From contig NC_015577.1 of the NCBI RefSeq assembly GCF_000214355.1, forward strand, positions 3,339,389 to 3,403,388: DNA of 64,000 nucleotides, given 5' to 3'. Under the pieces are notes generated by a model. That model was not told the DNA's origin and made no database searches. It was given only the letters and a program-made list of their open reading frames with translations. Of this stretch, positions 9,964 to 51,037 are shown one piece after another. Each line of letters opens with the position of its first letter. Within the stretch, counting starts at the first letter, position 1. Position numbers and translations under genes: made by a program. The DNA comes from Leadbettera azotonutricia ZAS-9. Its GTDB lineage: Bacteria > Spirochaetota > Spirochaetia > Treponematales > Breznakiellaceae.

Positions 9964-11235
9964 CTAGCCTACCACAAATTCCTTCAGCTTCCCCGCAGTC
10001 CTCTCATCAACCCGCGCATCCATCTCGATAAACTCGTCCTCATATTTCTCCGACAGGACTGTGCCGCTGCGGTGGAGCATTGCCGCCAAATCGCTGCGGG
10101 CATGGGGGAAGCGGAAGGATTGCACTGCCCCGGCGAGGAGGGATTCCATGCGCGCCAGAAGATCGCTTAGGCCCTCGCCGGTACTGGCCGAAAGGGGGAT
10201 GGCCCCTTCGTAACGGGTTTTAAGATCTTCTATATATGCCGAAGCTTCCGGGCGGTCGGCTTTGTTGAGGACTGTGAGCATGGGGACCTTGTCGGCGCCC
10301 AGTTCGCGGAGAACCTGGAGGGTAGTGTCATAATAAGCCGGGGCATCCGGGTCCGAAGCGTCAAGGACGTGAATGAGCAGATCGGAGAGACTGGCTTCTT
10401 CCAGGGTGGAACGGAAGGCATTGACGAGGTTGTGGGGGAGGCGGCGTATGAAGCCGACAGTGTCCACCAGGAGTATGGGGAGGCCGCCGGGGAGAAGGAG
10501 GCGGCGGCTGGTAGAGTCCAGGGTGGCAAAAAGCTTGTCTTCAGCAAGGACCTCCGCGCCGGTAAGGGCGTTGAGGAGAGTGGACTTGCCGGCGTTGGTA
10601 TAGCCCACAATGGCACAGACCTGCATGCCCTGCTTTTGACGCTGCTTGCGCTGGGTGTCGCGCTGGCGGCGGACAGTTTCGAGCTCTTCTTCCAGGCGGT
10701 GTATGCGCTGTTCCACAAGGCGGCGGTCGGTTTCGAGGCGGGTTTCGCCTGAGCCCTTTGTGCCGTAGCGGCCGCCTCGCTGGCGGTTAAGGTCTATGTA
10801 TTTGTGCTGAAGCCGTGGGAGGGAATAATAGAGTTCAGCCAGGCTTACCTGAAGGTCTGCTTCGCGGGTGCGGGCGCGGCCCGAGAATATCTGGATTATG
10901 AGTTCCTGCCTGTCGATGACTGAGATTCCGGTAAGCTCTTCCCAGTTGCGCTGCTGGGACGGACTGATGTCGCGGTCAAAGACAAGGCAGTCGGCTGCCA
11001 GTTCAATGGCTTTTTCAGATAGCTCTGCCGCCTTTCCTGTCCCCATGCCATATTGGGCGTGGTTCTCGCGTATGTGGACGGTCTCCTGGCCGGCTATTTC
11101 GAGGCCCAGGGTTCCGCAGAGGTCAAGAAGCTCGCGGCCAAGGGATTCGGCTTCTTTTTTGGAGATTTTATTGTCCCTGATGCCTATAAGAAAGGCCCTG
11201 GGGGCTTTTTCTTCCGTGGAGAGAGTCTCTTTCAT
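9964..11235 (-). CDS. hflX: Ribosome-associated GTPase HflX
   Basis: This 423-residue GTPase has an N-terminal HflX domain, the motif GGRYGTKGSGETRLE, a coiled-coil stretch, and then the G domain: G1 GYTNAGKST, G3 DTVGFI and G4 NKAD. HflX binds the 50S subunit and rescues stalled or stressed ribosomes. The start (MKETLSTEEKAPRAFLIG) gives a normal length. It faces the repeat-rich membrane protein gene across a 114-base divergent gap. Confidence 0.95.
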   Translation of the reverse strand: MKETLSTEEKAPRAFLIGIRDNKISKKEAESLGRELLDLCGTLGLEIAGQETVHIRENHAQYGMGTGKAAELSEKAIELAADCLVFDRDISPSQQRNWEELTGISVIDRQELIIQIFSGRARTREADLQVSLAELYYSLPRLQHKYIDLNRQRGGRYGTKGSGETRLETDRRLVEQRIHRLEEELETVRRQRDTQRKQRQKQGMQVCAIVGYTNAGKSTLLNALTGAEVLAEDKLFATLDSTSRRLLLPGGLPILLVDTVGFIRRLPHNLVNAFRSTLEEASLSDLLIHVLDASDPDAPAYYDTTLQVLRELGADKVPMLTVLNKADRPEASAYIEDLKTRYEGAIPLSASTGEGLSDLLARMESLLAGAVQSFRFPHARSDLAAMLHRSGTVLSEKYEDEFIEMDARVDERTAGKLKEFVVG

Positions 11236-33199: not shown

Positions 33200-33318
33200 C
33201 GGTATATGTTTCTTATGAAGGGAAAGCGGGCATATGCATAGGGGGAGTCTATCCGCGACACACGATTGTGGGCAAGAGCGAATGAATGAGGCAATAATTA
33301 GAGTCTGTCTATAAAGTG

Positions 33319-33346
33319 TTAAGTTTTGTCCTGGTCTTACTATAAT
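33319..33346 (+). promoter_or_regulatory. Candidate promoter shared with 47080-47107
   Basis: TTAAGT (33319-33324) and TATAAT (33341-33346) are separated by 16 bases and preceded by GTG. The same GTGTTAAGTTT block, with TATACA at identical spacing, occurs at 47080-47107 before another small AT-rich gene. The block here directly follows AGAGTCTGTCTATAAA, which looks like an insertion-sequence end, so a mobile-element origin is possible. Confidence 0.4.
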
Positions 33347-33381
33347 CCGGTATAAAATGAAATTTATGGAGGATGAACAGT

Positions 33382-33606
33382 ATGGCAACACTTATGAAAT
33401 GTATTTCTGATGTTTTGACCGGCGGTTTGACTGCAGCCAGAGCTGTTTTAGGGTTTAATTTTCATATAATAGTTGCACAAATAGCAAACTTAATAGTATG
33501 CATGATGGTTGGAAGAGGCTTAACACTTGCTGCTAATGCCGCCTTACAAAAATTTGCAGGCCTTTTATTTGGTACTATGATATATGTTTCGGAGGAATGC
33601 AAGTAA
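33382..33606 (+). CDS. Small hydrophobic protein of unknown function
   Basis: This 74-residue protein starts at the ATG at 33382, nine bases after ATGGAGG; an in-frame ATG at 33373 abuts that site and is less likely. Two hydrophobic segments (about residues 22-42 and 50-68) are split by a short polar loop. There is no cleavable signal. It resembles small holin- or bacteriocin-sized membrane proteins only in layout, and I recognise no family. It is AT-rich, has its own promoter-like block, and is coupled directly to the next small gene. Confidence 0.55.
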   Translation: MATLMKCISDVLTGGLTAARAVLGFNFHIIVAQIANLIVCMMVGRGLTLAANAALQKFAGLLFGTMIYVSEECK

Positions 33607-33903
33607 ATGTTCATCTCTATATTAATATTACTACTTGTTATAAGTTTAACCATAGCATTAAAAAATATTTCAATTAAGAAAATTAATAATCTCATTGATA
33701 AAAAATTTAAAGAAGGATTCTATGCTAGAACTAATGGTTTTATACGATTTTTTATTAATAAATTCAATAAATATCAACTTATCAATCAGCAATATACTAG
33801 GATCTATAGAAAACGCGCAAACATGATTTGTAATATTACAATGGCAGTACTAATCACGTTTTGGATAATTTTATTTCTTGTAAGATATATTCGGTCGGCA
33901 TAA
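33607..33903 (+). CDS. Small two-helix membrane protein of unknown function
   Basis: This 98-residue protein starts directly after the stop of the preceding gene with no gap. One membrane helix at each end (about 2-20 and 75-95) flanks a strongly basic middle (KKINNLIDKKFKEGFYARTNG, RIYRKRANM). Composition is very AT-rich, unlike the core genes. The family is unknown. Tandem tiny membrane proteins beside a type III CRISPR locus could be an effector pair, but nothing in the sequence proves it. Confidence 0.55.
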   Translation: MFISILILLLVISLTIALKNISIKKINNLIDKKFKEGFYARTNGFIRFFINKFNKYQLINQQYTRIYRKRANMICNITMAVLITFWIILFLVRYIRSA

Positions 33904-34087: not shown

Positions 34088-34486
34088 TTACTCAAGTTCA
34101 GAATAACGTTTATAACGCCTAAAGCACACATGCTCAAACACATAACTCCGGTGAACAAGCTCGCCATCCCTTTCCTCTTTTGCAATACGTTTGGTAACCG
34201 CATGCACTGGTACAAGTCTCCGTCCAAGAGCATAGTCCACCAGCGCGAAAGTCATGCCGAATTCACCCTGCAATACGACAACATCATCGGCTTTAGCCTC
34301 GGAAAGCCATGAGGCAAAGGGCTCAAGATGTGCCTGGGTCAGAAATTTGTCCGTGGGTACTGCGCTCCATAAAGCCTTTAATTCTTCAGAGGGGTAGATG
34401 CAGTTTTCGCAGCCAAAATCATTAGCAAGTTCGGCTTTTTGATTTTCGGTAAGAGCGTGGTTCAAGAGGCAGTAGGCGGTTGGCAT
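34088..34486 (-). CDS. csx20: Csx20-like CRISPR accessory protein, putative ring nuclease
   Basis: This 132-residue protein is the last gene of the Cmr operon and overlaps the csx1 end by 25 bases. N-terminal HALTENQKAELANDFG, the YPSEELKALWSAVP segment, VVLQGEFGMTFALVDYAL and the C-terminal FEHVCFRRYKRY match my recollection of the Csx20 family. Csx20 has been proposed to degrade cyclic oligoadenylates and so switch off CARF effectors. Its position next to a CARF-HEPN effector supports that role. I am fairly but not fully sure of the family name. Confidence 0.6.
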   Translation of the reverse strand: MPTAYCLLNHALTENQKAELANDFGCENCIYPSEELKALWSAVPTDKFLTQAHLEPFASWLSEAKADDVVVLQGEFGMTFALVDYALGRRLVPVHAVTKRIAKEERDGELVHRSYVFEHVCFRRYKRYSELE

Positions 34487-35784
34487 ATATTCCTCAGTCT
34501 CCCGAACAGTTGTTTTATTTCTTTTTTAAATATTGAATAGCTATTAGCTCTAGCATCAAATCCACCATGATTTATATCATTACGCAACCAACTTACCTTG
34601 TTATAAACCACTGCAAAATTTTTCAATGCACTGTTGTTGATATCCAAGCTTAAATTTTGGATTAATTGTTTATCGTCGTTAGTGAATTTCCAATCATCTA
34701 TATTTTTATTACTGTTAAAGCGATATGTATAATTGAGATACTTTCTCAAAACTTCTCTGTATTCCCTATTATGAAAGTCTGCTTTTTGTTGACTTAATAA
34801 ATAAGTAATTATTCCCTCTTGCATCATTGTCAAAGCCTCAGGAAGCATTTTATGATCCAAATGCCATTTAACAGCATGTAGAAAATTTAATGGTTCTTTG
34901 GTTTTAAAAGGAATAATTTTTTCTCTGAGGCGATCGAAAATAGGCTTAAAAGGCGCTTGATAATTTCCGGCAGCTTCAAGTTTATCAATATTCTCCCTGC
35001 AATTTTGAAATATTTTCCCATTAATAATCTCTGATCCTCGCAATGTAGCCATAGATTCAGTAACCGCCTCGATTGAACTCTTAACCCCTGCAGTTGAAGA
35101 TGTAGATTGATCTTTCATTTCTTCACTTATGGGATACTGCTTTGAAGAAGGGCTGGGAATATTAACAATTTCCATTAATTTATCACCAATACCATAATTA
35201 ACAAATGTATCAGCTGCTGAAGACCATTGCATTAATTGGTAAAAGGGCGTCAAATTAAAAATAGGCGCTGTATTCTCTTCATTTCTTGCCTCATATGCAC
35301 CATAATAAATACCCATAACATTAATATTCTTCAGATGTCGTGCGTAATTCAGGATAGCAAAACCAAGCATTGGCAATGAACGGAAACCATGTGTAATATC
35401 AAATATTACAGAATCATCATTATCCAGCACGTCATATATTTTACTAAATATATCCCAAATTTCCATTTCCGATTTTCCATCCGGAATATCAACTGTTTCA
35501 ATTTTAGCCGTAGTATTGAGTGATTCCAAAATCGATTTTAGCCCAATTTCAGGAACATCCCAATGTTTCTCTTTTGCCCCTTCTGTAAGAACAATAAATA
35601 TCTTATCATTTTCAGTATAATTTTTACAGAAAAAATCAATTGTAGCTCGTTGGGCAAATTTGGTTTTTATCTTATTTCCAGAATATGAATAAACACATTC
35701 CTTGTAATCGCCAGTTCCAAGGAATGCTATAAAAATATTTCTCCGCTTTGAAGGCTTGCTCTCCTGGGATGTATTATCCATCAT
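34462..35784 (-). CDS. csx1: CARF-HEPN ribonuclease, Csx1/Csx2 (TIGR02221-like)
   Basis: This is a 440-residue type III CRISPR effector. The N-terminal CARF domain of TM1812 type carries FLGTGDY near residue 20 and DITHGFRSLPMLGFAILN near 130-147, the ligand-pocket loop. The C-terminal HEPN domain has the catalytic RxxxxH motif as RNDINH at about 399-404. It should be an RNase activated by the cyclic oligoadenylate made by Cmr2. GAGG lies seven bases before the ATG. It is followed by csx20 in the same operon. The gene is more AT-rich than the cmr genes. Confidence 0.88.
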   Translation of the reverse strand: MMDNTSQESKPSKRRNIFIAFLGTGDYKECVYSYSGNKIKTKFAQRATIDFFCKNYTENDKIFIVLTEGAKEKHWDVPEIGLKSILESLNTTAKIETVDIPDGKSEMEIWDIFSKIYDVLDNDDSVIFDITHGFRSLPMLGFAILNYARHLKNINVMGIYYGAYEARNEENTAPIFNLTPFYQLMQWSSAADTFVNYGIGDKLMEIVNIPSPSSKQYPISEEMKDQSTSSTAGVKSSIEAVTESMATLRGSEIINGKIFQNCRENIDKLEAAGNYQAPFKPIFDRLREKIIPFKTKEPLNFLHAVKWHLDHKMLPEALTMMQEGIITYLLSQQKADFHNREYREVLRKYLNYTYRFNSNKNIDDWKFTNDDKQLIQNLSLDINNSALKNFAVVYNKVSWLRNDINHGGFDARANSYSIFKKEIKQLFGRLRNICQPPTAS

Positions 35785-39144: not shown

Positions 39145-41616
39145 TTATCCTTCCCTTCCGGATGCTAAAAAAGCCGCAATAATTACCGCTTCCTGATTGA
39201 TTATTAATTTCGGACTACCAGGTTTTTTTATAATGCTTACCCCTGCCAGGGCATTGGTATAATTTTCCAATTCTTCTTTCGTAAGGCTTTTATTTGCCTG
39301 GTCGGAATGTCCCAGTTCGTACCGGAAAAGTTTTGCGATCTTTGCCCTATTGTCTTCGGTATCGGACTTAACCAGCGGCTCAAGGGATGTTTCCATTGCC
39401 TTTTCAGCCAAGCGGTAAAGCAGGGATGTTGAAAGCCTATCCCCGGCAACGCCTTGAATAAGTGTCTTAAAAGAACTGAGGCGGCTCCCGCCGAATATAT
39501 GGCTTGATTCATTTTCGTCCCATTTGAACCAGACATTCCTATCCCCGCCTGAACGTTTAGAAAGCCTTATAGCCAACGCATTCCTGCCTGCTTCGTGTTT
39601 GGCAATGCCTTCCAACACTTCGTGGGCGCTGCGTATTACTTCGCGGAGAGGCTCCTTATAATGGGCAATCACTATGGCGCCTGAAATGGAAATACCTTCT
39701 GCGCCGCTTCCCAAATGGAGGGAAATTTTTGAAAGCCCCGGTGAACCGCGCTCAACAGGATAAGCTCCTTCATTGTTGTAAGCTGCAAAAGACAGGGTAT
39801 AGGCTTTGCGGATCTCATCGGCTGTTTCAATAGCTGTAGACACCGGCATTATGGCGCACACATCATCGCCGCCGGCATAAATAAGGCGGCCCCTGCCCCG
39901 GACAACAGATGAATTAACACCATAGCGGGCAAAATTGTTCAGGGAGTCGGAAATTGCTGCATGCAGAGCAGGACTCATGGTCTTTTCGGTTTTAATGGTT
40001 GAACCATTGATAAGATCGCCCATTTTATCGCCATCCATTAAAAGGAGGGCATAATATTTATCCTTATTTGTATAGGAGATATTATAATAACTCGCTTCAT
40101 GCTGAAAATCGTACCCTTCAGGCTCGATTTCGTTATTATACATTGCGTCAGTTATTTTCTTTTCGTCAAGGTTTTTATCAATCCCCTTTAATTCATTAAG
40201 GAAATCTTTTGCCGCCATTTCGGTGGTCGAGGGAAATTTACTGTCGAAAAGGGCGTTATATAAAATTCTGTTCCCGGTTTTCTGTATCGCGATGGGCAAA
40301 AAACGCTTTACCGCACAAATAGCGCAGAGCCTTTCGTTCTTGCCGACTTGAGTATAGTTATCCTTTTCGGGGTTTGTTCTATCCCCGAGAGTTTTCCAGA
40401 ATTCCTTAATCCCGGCACTGTAGACCTGTGCCTTTGTATTCCCGGCATCATCCATAGAATGAAGCGCCTCATGCTCGCCACAGAGGGGGCATTTTTCGCC
40501 TTCCTGAATATTTTTAAGTTTTAGGGGTTTCATTTTTCCGGCGGCAAGCACCCCCTGAACCAGGGAGTGGGATGCACCGTAGAGCATAACATTGCCGGCA
40601 ACAAATTCTTTTTCCCATTTATCAGGGGGAAGCAGTTTTGCCGCCTTATCCTTGTCTTCCGGGGCAAGGAATTTGATCTTGGCCCATGAAAACTTCCAGT
40701 AACTGTCTATCTGATTTGACCAGAGAGCATCAAATTTAGCGCCGGATCCGGTCCTGTCGGCAATGTACTTTTTGACAATTTCCGCCTGGCGTATCCATTC
40801 ATCATTGATGGTCTTTTCAATTTCCCTGCAAATTAACGAAGCCGATTCTTTTGGCGCAACAAAAACAAATTTATTTGGGAATGCGGCGATGGAAACAGAT
40901 CCATTGTCCAATGCCGCCAACTGGGCATCTGTTTCAATTAGAAACGATTTTAATTTGTATTTATCTTCAAGCAGATCATTTATCATGGATTGATTGTGCA
41001 GCGAAGGATAGAGAATATGATCAGGCCCTAATTCCCGCATCACATGGGAGAGCCCGGCAAAGGCAAGATACGAAAGCAAGATCGATCCGGCCCAAAAATC
41101 GCGGAGCTTGCGGGCATGGCCGATAAAATCCTGCACCGGCGTTATGGAAAAGGCCACCAACGCAGCCTTGCCTGACGCATCCATGGAACCAGCCGATTCA
41201 AAAGCCGACTTAAAGCTTAATTGCTGCCACAGGGAATTATCAGGGTCCTTTGGATCTCCAGGGAGTATATCCCACAGAGCCCCAAAGCCGCCCGCATTGT
41301 TCAGGCGAAGCCTTTTTGGAAAAGCAAAAAAGAAATACTGGAAAGCGGCGTCTGCCCATGCTTCGGTTCCCGGGGCAAGGCCATTCTTTTCGCTCAACAG
41401 TCCAAGATCTTTATCCATAATGCCCTTTAGCTCTGCCTGTAATTTGCCCACATCAAAAACAGGGAGATCGAGAGGAAGTTTTTCCCCCACCAAAGGATGA
41501 ATTATCGCAGGAGATTTAATAAAAGCACCGTCTTTTGCCAAGCCATCAATTAATCCACGGACAATGGCGTCCTGCCAGAGTGTTACTTTTTTATGCCAAT
41601 AATTTTCCGGCTTCAT
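39145..41616 (-). CDS. cmr2: Type III-B Cas10 subunit Cmr2, cyclase-type, HD motif apparently lost
   Basis: This 823-residue large subunit has an intact palm motif GGDD (IYAGGDDVCAIMP, near residue 580), a second palm segment (LLLMDGDKMGDLINGS) and a zinc ribbon (CPLCGEH and CAIC). It should make cyclic oligoadenylates on target binding. The N-terminal HD nuclease motif of other Cmr2/Cas10 proteins (LHDPP-like) appears as LWQDA, with Gln in place of the His. I infer no DNase activity. Its stop/start contact with cmr1 is an ATGA overlap. Confidence 0.93.
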   Translation of the reverse strand: MKPENYWHKKVTLWQDAIVRGLIDGLAKDGAFIKSPAIIHPLVGEKLPLDLPVFDVGKLQAELKGIMDKDLGLLSEKNGLAPGTEAWADAAFQYFFFAFPKRLRLNNAGGFGALWDILPGDPKDPDNSLWQQLSFKSAFESAGSMDASGKAALVAFSITPVQDFIGHARKLRDFWAGSILLSYLAFAGLSHVMRELGPDHILYPSLHNQSMINDLLEDKYKLKSFLIETDAQLAALDNGSVSIAAFPNKFVFVAPKESASLICREIEKTINDEWIRQAEIVKKYIADRTGSGAKFDALWSNQIDSYWKFSWAKIKFLAPEDKDKAAKLLPPDKWEKEFVAGNVMLYGASHSLVQGVLAAGKMKPLKLKNIQEGEKCPLCGEHEALHSMDDAGNTKAQVYSAGIKEFWKTLGDRTNPEKDNYTQVGKNERLCAICAVKRFLPIAIQKTGNRILYNALFDSKFPSTTEMAAKDFLNELKGIDKNLDEKKITDAMYNNEIEPEGYDFQHEASYYNISYTNKDKYYALLLMDGDKMGDLINGSTIKTEKTMSPALHAAISDSLNNFARYGVNSSVVRGRGRLIYAGGDDVCAIMPVSTAIETADEIRKAYTLSFAAYNNEGAYPVERGSPGLSKISLHLGSGAEGISISGAIVIAHYKEPLREVIRSAHEVLEGIAKHEAGRNALAIRLSKRSGGDRNVWFKWDENESSHIFGGSRLSSFKTLIQGVAGDRLSTSLLYRLAEKAMETSLEPLVKSDTEDNRAKIAKLFRYELGHSDQANKSLTKEELENYTNALAGVSIIKKPGSPKLIINQEAVIIAAFLASGREG

Positions 41617-46997: not shown

Positions 46998-47079
46998 TAA
47001 TTTCCTTTCTGTTACAGTTGGAAAAAGATTACTGTGCTAAAAAGCCAAAAAAATTTACAGAAAAGTTATTTGTTAAGTG

Positions 47080-47107
47080 TTAAGTTTCTTATTTTTTGCA
47101 CTATACA
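47080..47107 (+). promoter_or_regulatory. Candidate promoter, twin of 33319-33346
   Basis: TTAAGT (47080-47085) and TATACA (47102-47107) are 16 bases apart within the block GTGTTAAGTTT, as upstream of the small genes at 33382. It lies 36 bases before the small gene at 47144. The match in both sequence and spacing is the only evidence. Confidence 0.35.
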
Positions 47108-47143: not shown

Positions 47144-47338
47144 ATGAAAAGTTCATTTTTTGGTATAGGTAATAGTTTTGGATTCTCTAGGTCAATTTTT
47201 GAAAATATTGGGAAGTCACCAAAGAAAGATACACTCAAATCCAAATTTATATTTAGGGAAAGACCGATTTTGATATTTGACCCTGGTACAGGAAATGAAC
47301 CGAAAGTACCAAAGGATGTTTCCGAATTCAAGAAATAA
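47144..47338 (+). CDS. Small protein of unknown function
   Basis: This 64-residue basic protein (MKSSFFGIGNSFGFSRSIF at the start, then a Lys-rich middle) begins seven bases after AAGGAG. A promoter-like block lies upstream. It has no membrane helix or signal, and I recognise no family. It is convergent with the sigma-like gene and lies between CRISPR array 2 and that operon. The ribosome site makes it more likely real than chance. Confidence 0.45.
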   Translation: MKSSFFGIGNSFGFSRSIFENIGKSPKKDTLKSKFIFRERPILIFDPGTGNEPKVPKDVSEFKK

Positions 47339-47376: not shown

Positions 47377-48126
47377 TTATTCACAGTCAAAATCTATATT
47401 ATACTTCTTTATAAGATCTCTTAATTGCGGTCTTAGCCTTTCCTTAAATATGCGAACATCTGCACTTACACGTTGTATTAACTTATTATGCATAGCAGCT
47501 ATATCAGTCTTGGAAATAAGGTCCTTATTGTTAGAATATTTATTTAACATATCGTAATCAATAAACGAATAATCAGTATTTAAATTTTCAACACTTAATA
47601 AAAAATCAAAAAATTCTTCTGTCAATATCATTTTACGATATTTAGTTTGTGCATTTTTATTTAAATTTTGATATTCTAACTCAATAATTTCAAGAATTTC
47701 TTGTTTTCGTTGAGAAATCTCTTTATCTTCATATATTTCACTTTCATCCCTTAGAGACGGGAAAATATTTTCATCTTCATTTCCTAAAAACAGCAAAGTA
47801 TTTTTATCCTCTTTTCTTTCTTTAAAATTCCTTACCAAAACACGTTTTATGGATCTCTTCAAATAATGCATAAATGGAAAACCCTTATTTGCATTAAAAG
47901 TGCGCAAACAATCCATAATGACCATATATATCTCAGGTTCATTTTCATAATATGATTTTTTTGACCTTGAAACGCCAGCATACCAATAATATTTAACATA
48001 GTCAATTATATCCAAAACAAGCTTTGTTGCAAGGCTTTGTTTGGCAGCTTCCATATTTTCACCGGATACTGAAAAATATTTTGAGTTGTTAATATCATTT
48101 TCGAGCTGCTCTTTGCTTTTAGTCAA
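47377..48126 (-). CDS. Sigma-factor-like protein
   Basis: This 249-residue AT-rich gene probably starts at TTG 48126; an ATG at 48051 is the alternative. Residues about 65-110 (EIYMVIMDCLRTFNANKGFP, then FMHYLKRSIKRVLVRNFKER) resemble sigma-70 region 2, which binds core polymerase and the -10 element. The C-terminal segment ISKTDIAAMHNKLIQRVSAD looks like a region 4 helix-turn-helix. The middle is charged. It is the last gene of the five-gene minus-strand operon, 17 bases after the CARF-like gene. The family resemblance is by eye and divergent. Confidence 0.5.
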   Translation of the reverse strand: MTKSKEQLENDINNSKYFSVSGENMEAAKQSLATKLVLDIIDYVKYYWYAGVSRSKKSYYENEPEIYMVIMDCLRTFNANKGFPFMHYLKRSIKRVLVRNFKERKEDKNTLLFLGNEDENIFPSLRDESEIYEDKEISQRKQEILEIIELEYQNLNKNAQTKYRKMILTEEFFDFLLSVENLNTDYSFIDYDMLNKYSNNKDLISKTDIAAMHNKLIQRVSADVRIFKERLRPQLRDLIKKYNIDFDCE

Positions 48127-48143: not shown

Positions 48144-48755
48144 TTATAATGTAAAAACATCGTTAAGCATTTTTAACGCTGTCTCAGCGTCACGGTTTTC
48201 CATAGCTCCAATTAGCTTCTGTAAATAATAAATCGATGTTATATCATAAATCATGGGATTGTAAGGTTTTGGTGGAAAATCAATTTTTCCATACAGAATA
48301 TACAACACTGACACATTATTAAAAGTATCTGCAAAATTTAAAGCGCATAGAAGAATGAAGGGAAAGGGTTTGCTGCCATAGGTAATATCTGCTATCACCT
48401 CTGTATCTTTGCCTATTTTTTCAATCAGCTGGTTTAAAAGAAATTCAAAGACTTTTTTTTCCGGCTCAAAGGGCAGCTCAATGATATCTTCAGATATATC
48501 AGGATTTATACCTGAAGTAACGTGTAATAATTCATCCTTAAACTTTTTTACATATTCGTTCCCCATGTTTTCGCCGCCCAGGGTAACAATAAATATAATT
48601 TTCACTTTTTCTTTTGGCTGCAGGGTCTTTGCCAAAATACCATTTATTGGAAACATAACTTTTCCATCATACTCGATAGCGCTGTTTCCTTTGACAGGAT
48701 ATTGGAGTGAATAAACAGCACCTTTCATGGGCATTGTAACAATTACGGTTTTCAT
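48144..48755 (-). CDS. Stand-alone CARF-like protein (TM1812/Csx1 type, no effector domain)
   Basis: This is a 203-residue protein. Residues about 130-150 read DITYGSKPFPFILLCALN, closely parallel to DITHGFRSLPMLGFAILN in the Csx1 of the same locus; this is the ligand-loop region of TM1812-type CARF domains. A preceding IIFIVTLGGENMGNEYVKKF also fits. The chain ends soon after the CARF fold, with no HEPN, PD-D/ExK or HTH part. It could be a cyclic-oligoadenylate sensor that acts on a partner, or a ring nuclease. AGGAG is seven bases before the ATG. Neighbours are a membrane coiled-coil protein and a sigma-like protein. Confidence 0.65.
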   Translation of the reverse strand: MKTVIVTMPMKGAVYSLQYPVKGNSAIEYDGKVMFPINGILAKTLQPKEKVKIIFIVTLGGENMGNEYVKKFKDELLHVTSGINPDISEDIIELPFEPEKKVFEFLLNQLIEKIGKDTEVIADITYGSKPFPFILLCALNFADTFNNVSVLYILYGKIDFPPKPYNPMIYDITSIYYLQKLIGAMENRDAETALKMLNDVFTL

Positions 48756-48768
48756 AGATTTTCTCCTT

Positions 48769-49077
48769 TTATACTGAAGCTAAGGTAATCTGGTTTTTTT
48801 TAAGCTGCTCAACTTTTTCCATATTTTCTTTAATCGACCTGTTTTTTAGGGATATTGCCTTTCTCAATTCATATCTATGCCTAAAATGCCATATTTTTAA
48901 AGCATGCATTTGCTTTTTTAACTCAGACACTTCATTTTCAAGATTCTTGATAATTTTAAGCAGCTGTTCAATCTGCTTCCGTAAATTCTTATTGTCAATC
49001 CATTGAAGGATATTGACAACCATCGAAGAAGTAGTAGAAATACCTAAAGCGATGACAAGCCAAGCTAAAAACGGCAT
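48769..49077 (-). CDS. Small membrane-anchored coiled-coil protein
   Basis: This 102-residue protein has one N-terminal membrane helix (residues 3-25, FLAWLVIALGISTTSSMVV). The rest (about 30-100) is a heptad-like coiled coil rich in Lys, Glu, Leu and Ile (LRKQIEQLLKIIKNLENEVS). AAGGAG lies eight bases before the ATG, and the gene overlaps the upstream gene end by 13 bases. No family recognised. Its form suits a membrane tether that oligomerises or docks a soluble partner. Confidence 0.7.
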   Translation of the reverse strand: MPFLAWLVIALGISTTSSMVVNILQWIDNKNLRKQIEQLLKIIKNLENEVSELKKQMHALKIWHFRHRYELRKAISLKNRSIKENMEKVEQLKKNQITLASV

Positions 49078-50261
49078 AAAATTTTCTCCTTGTTACTATA
49101 TAATTGATATTCCTCTTCAAAGGACGAAATATACTCTTCTATCGTTTTATCAGGCAATTTATTTTGGGTTGTTTTATCATATAAAATATCTATTTCTTTT
49201 CCGTTGCTCTTTATACGTTTATGTTGATTAATTACTAATTTTATGGAATGCTTTACTGTATTAAGCATAACAGGAAAATTTACCCTAAACAAAGCATGGG
49301 GATCATGCATTATCAGCCTTATAGATGTAATTGTTAAATTGGATGTCATTACCATCGCATTGGCCGCCAAAAGCATAGGTTGATATTTTAGATTATTTCC
49401 GATAATAAAATTTATTTTTTTGGTCTGTGTATAATAATCATACACAGACCAGGCATGTATAATGAGATTTGTAATAAAGCCAGGAAGGTTTTGATAAACA
49501 AAAGTTCTGGAATTATATAATTGACTCCGATAAGCAGCTGCTATTGCGTCTCTTGTTTGCTGGCTTCCAAACTGCATTAAAAAAGTTGTTCCCGGGTAGG
49601 GTAATGAATTTGCATTACAAAAATCAGAAACCATGTGCGCTAAATAAGAAACGATAGCTTGCATAACGTTTGGAATACCTTTTCCAAATTGAGCGGTTAT
49701 TATATTTCCAAATTTATCAATTCCCCGGTAATTTCCTGAAATGATTTGTATTATACCTTCGATAAAGCGGAGCGGATCATGCCCAAATGAATATTGCTCA
49801 TGAATCGACTTTAATCCAATCATGGGAAAATCCTGGAAATCGATGGGAGCGCTTGCACCGTCCCTAAAGGAATCTGAGATGTTATCAAAAAAATCCTTAA
49901 AACTTGTAATTTTTTTTGATTTCATTAAGCCTGCTATTCTTCTATCCAATGGTCGCAAAATTGAAGTTTGTGTAATTATTGTATCAAGAATTATGCCGAC
50001 AGTTCCGGCAATAAACACGGCTATCCAATCTTGCTTTTGCCACGTTTCATCAAAGTACTCAATACCCATATCTGACAACATATCAAGAAGTACTTTATCA
50101 TCTTTCCTGTCTCTATATGAGGCATCGAGAAAATTCGGATTGCTGTTTAACTCGACATCTGTATAGTTAAATTTATTCATATCCCGTTTCAAAGAATTAA
50201 TATCTTCATATATGTTGAGAATCTTGTTTTTCTGTGATAATATGTCATCATTCATTTTCAT
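49065..50261 (-). CDS. Large membrane-associated protein of unknown function
   Basis: This protein of about 398 residues starts at the ATG at 50261, nine bases after GAGGAG; a longer frame from 50360 overlaps the WYL gene and lacks a site. An N-terminal charged helix region is followed by a hydrophobic segment (WIAVFIAGTVGIILDTIITQ). Central motifs are FGHDPLRFIEGIIQI and YLAHMVSDF followed by a PYPG stretch. More hydrophobic helices lie near the C-terminus (PGFITNLIIHAWSVYDYYTQ, LLAANAMVMTSNLTITSIRL). The H-M-V-S-D plus proline layout reminds me of a widespread, unnamed family of bacterial membrane proteins. Function unknown; it may be the membrane-acting component of this operon. Confidence 0.65.
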   Translation of the reverse strand: MKMNDDILSQKNKILNIYEDINSLKRDMNKFNYTDVELNSNPNFLDASYRDRKDDKVLLDMLSDMGIEYFDETWQKQDWIAVFIAGTVGIILDTIITQTSILRPLDRRIAGLMKSKKITSFKDFFDNISDSFRDGASAPIDFQDFPMIGLKSIHEQYSFGHDPLRFIEGIIQIISGNYRGIDKFGNIITAQFGKGIPNVMQAIVSYLAHMVSDFCNANSLPYPGTTFLMQFGSQQTRDAIAAAYRSQLYNSRTFVYQNLPGFITNLIIHAWSVYDYYTQTKKINFIIGNNLKYQPMLLAANAMVMTSNLTITSIRLIMHDPHALFRVNFPVMLNTVKHSIKLVINQHKRIKSNGKEIDILYDKTTQNKLPDKTIEEYISSFEEEYQLYSNKEKILCRF

Positions 50262-50341
50262 GCCAAACAACTCCTCAACCTGGATTTTATCCTTTCGGAT
50301 ATGCCTATATATAGCTGTCAAACTGAAAAACTTAACAGGTT

Positions 50342-51037
50342 CTATGAGTAAGCATTGCATGAATCCAGGAAAAAGTCCCGGAAATACTTTTTAAGATCCG
50401 GAGGCTCAATTACCAGCGCTTCCTTGCCAAATTTAATAAAATAATTTTTGATTTGTTCCCTGGAACAATTAAAGACATATATGTTACCATCGATGATTTC
50501 ATCGTATAGCGGCCTGAGATGCAATTGTTGCCTGTAATATTTCTTTCCAAGTTCTGTGAGCATCACTTTGATGCTCTTTACGTCACCCAGGAGAAAAGGC
50601 GCCCCTTTCTTGAGGAGAAGGTTTTCAAGTTCCAGTTTTTGATCTCTGGTAATTTTCCCGCTTTTTCCACGCATAATTTTTATTTCTTTAATGCGGGAAA
50701 TGCGGAATGAAGCGGGAATATATTCGTCAGTACTATCGGCCTTGGAACTGTACCCTGTTAAATAATAATACGTAGACTGAGGATCTGTCATAACACGATA
50801 AGGTTTCAGATAATATGTTACCGATTTATCGGAATTCCCCGGAGTGATTTTAAGACGTTTCCCCGATTGTATAGCTTCTTTTGCTTCGCGGATTTCATTA
50901 AAGAAAAATATACGCTCCCGTTTATAATAAGGCAGTTCGATGTATTCCTCAAATACCGCTTTAAGATAGCGGCCGATTTTTTGATTATAATAGTAGTCCT
51001 CTCCACAGTCCGAGGAGGCGCCAGTCAGGTACTCCAT
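50342..51037 (-). CDS. WYL-domain transcriptional regulator, C-terminal part (frameshifted)
   Basis: The frame encodes a WYL domain (YYLKPYRVMTDPQSTYYYLT, then FRISRIKEIKIM) and a C-terminal extension (QQLHLRPLYDEI, FGKEALVIEPPDL) of a WYL family known from clostridia. The same frame stays open upstream of the ATG at 51037 with good family-like residues (YLGILNEIPKLKSQDALRND). The true gene therefore continues into the fragment at 51148-51405 and is split at an A8 run (T8 at 51208-51215 on the plus strand). WYL proteins sense nucleotide-like or other ligands and often control CRISPR or defence loci. It heads the operon that contains the CARF-like and sigma-like genes. Confidence 0.7.
   Translation of the reverse strand: MEYLTGASSDCGEDYYYNQKIGRYLKAVFEEYIELPYYKRERIFFFNEIREAKEAIQSGKRLKITPGNSDKSVTYYLKPYRVMTDPQSTYYYLTGYSSKADSTDEYIPASFRISRIKEIKIMRGKSGKITRDQKLELENLLLKKGAPFLLGDVKSIKVMLTELGKKYYRQQLHLRPLYDEIIDGNIYVFNCSREQIKNYFIKFGKEALVIEPPDLKKYFRDFFLDSCNAYS

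Follow-up and report, generated by a model that had tools for sequence, protein, structure and literature searches.

A diverged sigma-70-family protein encoded next to a CARF protein in Leadbettera azotonutricia: a proposed transcription switch for anti-phage defence in spirochaetes

Introduction

What is the function of a small, poorly recognisable protein encoded directly behind a CARF protein, beside a type III CRISPR locus? The question is raised by an open reading frame (ORF) of 249 aa, with a TTG start, located at 47377..48126 (−) of the 64,000-nucleotide stretch of the Leadbettera azotonutricia ZAS-9 genome analysed here (the window). The first-pass annotation, made from the sequence alone, described it as a divergent sigma-factor-like protein that closes a CARF operon, and proposed that such a partner of a CARF protein would tie phage detection to a transcriptional response, with two similar promoter-like blocks in the window as its possible targets. 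The family of this protein, the conservation of its partnership and the distribution of the putative promoters are considered here in turn, followed by the switch that they suggest.

Gene organization around the sigma-like ORF

According to the ORF list of the window, the sigma-like ORF closes a run of genes on the same strand, so that its place at the end of a CARF operon is real. The run opens with a BnzB-like gene (49065..50262, −; PADLOC BnzB, 5.7e-13), whose true start is probably the ATG at 50262, which has a GAGGAG ribosome-binding site. It is followed by a 102-aa coiled-coil or membrane-anchor-like protein (48769..49077, −), with weak and mutually inconsistent family matches, and by a CARF-only protein of 203 aa (48144..48755, −), separated from the sigma-like gene by a 17 bp gap. 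Upstream of the operon promoter described below lies a WYL-domain protein (50342..51037, −), recognised by Pfam/PADLOC-type profile matches, which is probably a separate regulator.

The neighbouring type III locus contains Cas10 and Cmr1-like genes, as found by profile search, and the translation of its cas10 gene (39145..41616, −) carries the GGDD cyclase motif. The cas operon ends with a 440-aa protein (34462-35784, −) that by eye looks Csx1/CARF-HEPN-like; it weakly matches the CARF profile of the sigma-linked family (1.2e-8), and a Pfam search returned no match for it.

Sigma-family identity of the 249-aa protein

The window protein is among the most diverged of its family. Searched alone, its best family match was spore_sigI (E 5.3e-4, single-sequence profile search); it matched no sigma family in Pfam and no PDB entry by phmmer, and single-sequence searches returned no plasmid, phage or viral-contig match. 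An Orthopox_F6 match in Pfam was below its cut-off and was set aside as unrelated. Because these searches yielded little, the sigma family was built through synteny with the CARF gene. The resulting profile of 59 homologues, compared with 64 chains, reached RpoD at 1.1e-9 and SigA at 1.6e-9, as well as RpoS and SigB structures, in alignments that span regions 2 and 3, and hhalign of the family against spirochaete sigma factors gave 97.4%. TIGR02937 was matched at E≤0.01 by 23 of the 59 homologues, and at 1.4e-9 by the one from genome G029 (locus L002), which belongs to another genus and has the same CARF–sigma pair; the G029 homologue also matched Pfam Sigma70_r2 above its cut-off. Under the curated TIGR02937 (sigma70-ECF) cut-off of 42.9, both the window protein (11.3 bits) and the homologue (37.8) score too low to be classed as ECF factors.

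Structure prediction points the same way. The AlphaFold model (pLDDT 85.8) shows a region-2 fold at residues ~6-110, and SigI (8i24) aligns to it at 3.0 Å over 98 residues. Nearly all top rows of the structure search were sigma factors; the best Foldseek E-value was weak (0.0084), probably because the orientation of the domains differs. Region 2 of sigma-70, which is responsible for core binding and −10 recognition, is accordingly recognised by profile, by fold and, in the homologue, by Sigma70_r2. Region 3 is kept by many homologues and has been lost in the window protein. The C-terminal part is less clear: a helix-turn-helix (HTH) is predicted at ~191-241, the C-terminal profile alone reached only 27% probability in hhalign, and Sigma70_r4 was matched weakly (0.08) in one family member, so that a region-4 HTH is plausible but weak.

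With the homologue profile reaching RpoD and SigA to 1e-9 and the model matching sigma factors, the protein almost certainly belongs to the sigma family. The profile comparison that the first-pass annotation had recommended returned sigma factors and no unrelated fold; of the two segments that it had read as spaced like those of small sigma factors, the region 2-like one is borne out by profile and fold, and the HTH-like one remains a prediction that is weak by sequence. Another diverged sigma-like protein, of 287 aa, is encoded at 3049857-3050720 (+) of the same genome (L108:4857-5720) in a housekeeping neighbourhood; considered as a family member, it was not a close relative of the CARF-linked sigmas.

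The CARF partner and the conservation of the pair

The upstream neighbour is a well-defined CARF protein (PADLOC CARF2--CARF, 2.5e-84). Its model (pLDDT 90.9) finds cA4-bound Csx1-Crn2 as best structural match (Z 14), followed by Csm6, Card1, Can2, Csa3 and ring nucleases, and it has the features of the CARF superfamily, namely a Rossmann fold, the conserved DxTxG motif and a K/R after strand 4. This K/R after the motif, which has been linked to nucleotide ligands in CARF domains and is mostly missing in RtcR (Makarova 2014, PMC4012209), is kept in 67/67 homologues with a detectable motif. The best structural match is only suggestive as to the ligand of this CARF protein; cyclic oligoadenylate is a plausible signal at this locus, because a GGDD Cas10 is encoded there.

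A CARF protein search found this protein in 18/395 genomes of the class, and a sigma-like gene accompanies 21 of the 23 class-level matches. Among named genomes, the search recovered 49 loci (a few of them on the same contigs as class-level loci), at which sigma-like genes were detected with a profile derived from those of the class-level set. Most are from Treponema/Spirochaetaceae; beyond spirochaetes there are two Fibrobacter loci (L033/L036), one Endomicrobium locus (L056) and one alphaproteobacterial locus (L062), all of them in MAGs, where the pair may reflect either horizontal transfer or binning error. The CARF gene is directly followed by the sigma gene at 45/49 loci, with a gap of −47 to +28 bp, and of the four loci without an intact pair, two lie where a contig ends (L032, L047) and the others are truncated remnants that are nearly identical to each other (L052, L053). 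In these remnants, the CARF ORF (9995-10792) has a sigma remnant fused in frame to its end, followed by a frameshift, and the upstream promoter remains; from their sequence they are decayed modules.

The partners differ in conservation: between the window and G029, identity is 57% for CARF and ~25–29% for sigma, so the former is far better conserved. Many clades are common to the CARF and sigma trees, and CARF and sigma are inherited together in many spirochaetes. The sigma-like partner of a CARF protein that the first-pass annotation had proposed is therefore a pairing conserved in dozens of genomes. One contig (G422:C20; L017, L024, L071) carries two convergent CARF–sigma modules with different sigmas, ~3 kb apart, and a Cas10.

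Putative promoters in the window genome

The two blocks noted at 33319 and 47080 share AAGTGTTAAGTTT, followed 12 bp on by ACTATA. Genome-wide pattern scans found their exact core, GTTAAGTTT-N13-CTATA, three times in the 3.86-Mb genome, clustered in 17 kb, so that the shared blocks are real. One copy (33318..33344, +) lies ahead of a 77-aa small hydrophobic protein (33373..33606, +), which is followed by a 98-aa membrane protein (33607..33903, +); another (47079..47105, +) precedes a 64-aa ORF with a ribosome-binding site (47144..47338, +), convergent with the sigma gene. The third, newly found copy (50310..50336, −) starts just past the stop codon of the WYL gene, and the GAGGAG ribosome-binding site and the ATG at 50262 come after it, an arrangement that places it at the head of the operon ending in CARF–sigma. 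A putative dedicated −35/−10 promoter thus stands near the sigma gene, and the window copies are very likely promoters of this sigma. The proposal that the blocks are its targets gained from this third copy and from the equivalents in relatives described below, all of it evidence from sequence.

The definition of the motif drew in part on the very sites that it describes; less circular are the third window site and the two whole-genome scans. A reversed control motif gave four matches in the window genome at ≤1 mismatch, which leaves the three exact, clustered copies as the informative part. The spacer after the 9-mer is N13; an earlier pattern with an N14-18 spacer found no match, and an N15 variant of the core had one site, at 344639, which is apparently unrelated. 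The sole one-mismatch core outside the region (3116497-3116523, +; L107 ~998-1024) lies ~100 bp ahead of the point where a ~340-aa ORF, DUF4062-like by eye, probably begins, and is a possible distant member of the regulon.

Related promoters in other genomes

Over the 3.1 Mb of G029, this −35 combined with CTAT is present at three near-identical sites, which lie together in a stretch of 3.6 kb. One stands 47 bp ahead of CARF, another at the junction of sigma and vWA, and the third in front of a small ORF that is itself upstream of the gene for an MkoA-like helicase. Treponema modules have a related motif, TRTCAACT-N16-CTAATA, positioned ahead of CARF and of the first gene after sigma (e.g. L035, L046). 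Scanned as TRTCAACT-N14–16-CTnnT[A/T] over 707 kb, it occurs 28 times on the module strand and once on the other, and a stricter form gave 12 matches in 20 genomes, most of them in module contigs, versus none for the reversed control. By k-mer enrichment TGTCAACT was obtained; automatic matching of U versus D windows was mostly noise.

At about 30/49 loci a site can be recognised ahead of CARF or behind sigma, and a Treponema-trained matrix gave no clear promoter match at roughly 19/49. Applied to the window, this matrix of another clade ranks two of the sites only 18th and 50th, and the third is not among the matches listed; the promoter motif therefore differs between clades. The best match of the matrix in the window (18.4 bits), at 33769 (+), falls within the 98-aa ORF and may be due to chance. 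The loci with the TTAAGTT-type promoter (the window, L003 and L027–L030, with L029 assigned from a looser site) form a single CARF clade with support 100/99.

Defence neighbours and Cas10

The same-strand genes 3′ of sigma, as annotated in cluster representatives, are varied. Depending on the locus, they include vWA–PP2C–kinase–SF1 helicase sets of TerY-P type, bpMoxR–vWA (PF20030, 3.6e-47), CBASS (patatin, CD-NTase and E2), AbiD/Abi_2, specificity and restriction subunits of type I RM, an AAA_21 ATPase and, in several relatives, cas6–cas10 operons of type III CRISPR. In a further unit of G029, the MkoA-like helicase (1.8e-105) is joined by a PDC-M26A protein, whose coiled-coil and AAA features recall, by analogy, those of CoCoNuT systems.

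With two profiles, Cas10 was detected in only about 7–8 of the 48 pair-bearing genomes, a count affected by MAG incompleteness and from which TIGR02578 matches at profile positions 7-149 in ~520-aa ORFs, judged to be HD-domain proteins, were left out. Neither profile found Cas10 in the near-complete genomes G318, G369, G048 and G275 or in the complete chromosome of T. vincentii OMZ 806. As most pair-bearing genomes lack a detectable Cas10, the CARF–sigma cassette should not be regarded mainly as an accessory of CRISPR.

A proposed CARF–sigma switch

The model proposed here, which we consider probable, is a two-component CARF–sigma transcription switch for anti-phage defence, with private promoters and self-amplification. 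The CARF protein would bind a nucleotide signal that is produced upon infection, and would control the sigma encoded immediately downstream, most likely as an anti-sigma released by the ligand, possibly as a co-activator. Free sigma would then take RNA polymerase to the private promoter, in the window of the type AAGTGTTAAGTTT-N12-ACTATA. These promoters would drive the CARF–sigma operon itself, as a positive feedback, together with nearby defence genes; the predicted targets in the window are the BnzB-like/102-aa/CARF/sigma operon and the two short units adjacent to the type III CRISPR genes. The outcome would be a sharp, self-amplifying switch. Computation supports the homology to sigma factors, the conserved pair and the promoters, the last by their position, direction and genome-wide rarity. 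Contact between CARF and sigma is suggested by their synteny, and we infer the nature of the ligand, whether the regulation is negative or positive, and the activity on RNA polymerase. That CARF directly gates sigma is reasonably likely, and the choice of anti-sigma over activator is tentative.

Other explanations have to be weighed against this switch. A sigma-descended protein might have given up RNA polymerase binding and act at the motif as an ordinary activator or repressor, while the housekeeping sigma starts transcription. The extreme divergence of the protein, its weak region 4 and the TATA-like −10 of the private motif would suit such a role; its best-conserved part, however, is region 2-3, the part that deals with RNA polymerase and the −10, and two boxes at fixed spacing with strong directionality resemble a promoter rather than an operator, which makes this reading unlikely. 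The promoter blocks themselves could be chance or housekeeping promoters, given that two such blocks alone could arise by chance once in several windows (a rough estimate) and that the Treponema matrix scores them only modestly. This is hard to reconcile with an exact core that occurs three times genome-wide, always in this region and once at an operon head, and with the replication of the pattern in another genus (G029), and it is the least probable of the alternatives.

It is conceivable, and about as unlikely as the loss of polymerase binding, that CARF is a ring nuclease, an off-switch that degrades the signal, with the sigma controlled separately and the operon shared without contact. Some stand-alone CARF proteins are ring nucleases, and the structural matches of the window CARF include ring nucleases of Sulfolobus, but the near-invariant pairing with sigma occurs mostly in genomes without Cas10, where there is no known source of cyclic oligoadenylate to turn off. 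As for a sigma that serves the type III CRISPR response only, like CalpS and CASP-sigma, the position of the window pair within a type III locus whose Cas10 has the GGDD motif and the pairs that precede cas6-cas10 operons in several relatives would be explained by it. The absence of Cas10 by two profiles from about 40/48 pair-bearing genomes, near-complete ones included, and the pairs that head TerY-P, MoxR-vWA, CBASS, AbiD and type I RM operons make it improbable, more so than either of the two preceding roles for the proteins. The ligand-gated CARF–sigma switch is thus retained as the preferred reading.

Comparison with known systems

SigI-type sigmas provide the nearest single-sequence match and a close structural match of region 2, at low sequence similarity. 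The partner of SigI is the membrane anti-sigma RsgI, whereas the window sigma is paired with a cytosolic CARF protein.

Other systems link a sensor to transcription in related ways. RtcR is one protein, CARF-AAA+-HTH, that acts through sigma-54 (PMC4012209, PMC11090510). As with RtcR and the RtcR-like regulators of CoCoNuT/RM superoperons, CARF sensing would drive adjacent defence operons, TerY-P/helicase ones included, largely outside CRISPR (PMC4012209, PMC11090510). In contrast to RtcR, the window CARF is a separate protein, with neither AAA+ nor HTH fused to it, and has a sigma-70-family factor of its own as partner. The paired CARF proteins also keep the K/R that RtcR mostly lacks. In type III-E systems, the Cas7-11-Csx29 protease cleaves Csx30, and CASP-sigma is clearly an ECF sigma by HHpred (PMC10028731). 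Common to CASP-sigma and the window sigma are a dedicated sigma in a CRISPR locus and predicted sites before locus genes; CASP-sigma has an adjoining inhibitor protein (PMC10028731), while the CARF–sigma pair lacks a protease, has a CARF sensor as partner and is mostly CRISPR-independent. Even at a threshold as permissive as E 1, the III-E sigma model NF041236 did not match the window sigma, and the Cas7-11/Csx29/Csx30 set that defines that system does not accompany it.

In CalpL-CalpT-CalpS, a SAVED-Lon sensor acts by cleaving the anti-sigma CalpT (PMC12751052, PMC11229360). A cyclic nucleotide signal would likewise lead to a sigma-factor response in the proposed CARF–sigma switch, with CARF instead of SAVED-Lon as sensor, and no Lon, SAVED-Lon, CalpT or separate anti-sigma was found among the operon proteins scanned. 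Csa3 regulators (CARF-wHTH) also couple ligand sensing by CARF to transcription (PMC8844856), as proposed here; they carry their own DNA-binding wHTH, whereas the CARF–sigma output would be a separate sigma factor.

No description of a CARF–sigma-70 pair was found in the literature searched, which did not include the 2020 CARF classification (Makarova 2020), where an earlier mention is possible. A broader reading, about as likely as not, is that the pair is a previously undescribed, portable ligand-gated cassette, in which CARF, on binding a nucleotide of infection, directly releases or arms its own sigma-70-family partner without a protease. Throughout spirochaetes this cassette would have been recruited to turn on CRISPR as well as many defence operons of unrelated kinds, and its promoter code would diverge along with it. 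If true, it would provide a further route, beside RtcR and WYL regulators, from one sensed nucleotide to many anti-phage defences, and it raises the question of what CARF proteins sense in genomes without Cas10. As the predicted promoters mark the regulon, the genes behind them in the window, namely the 77-, 98- and 64-aa ORFs and the BnzB-like gene, are candidate defence effectors.
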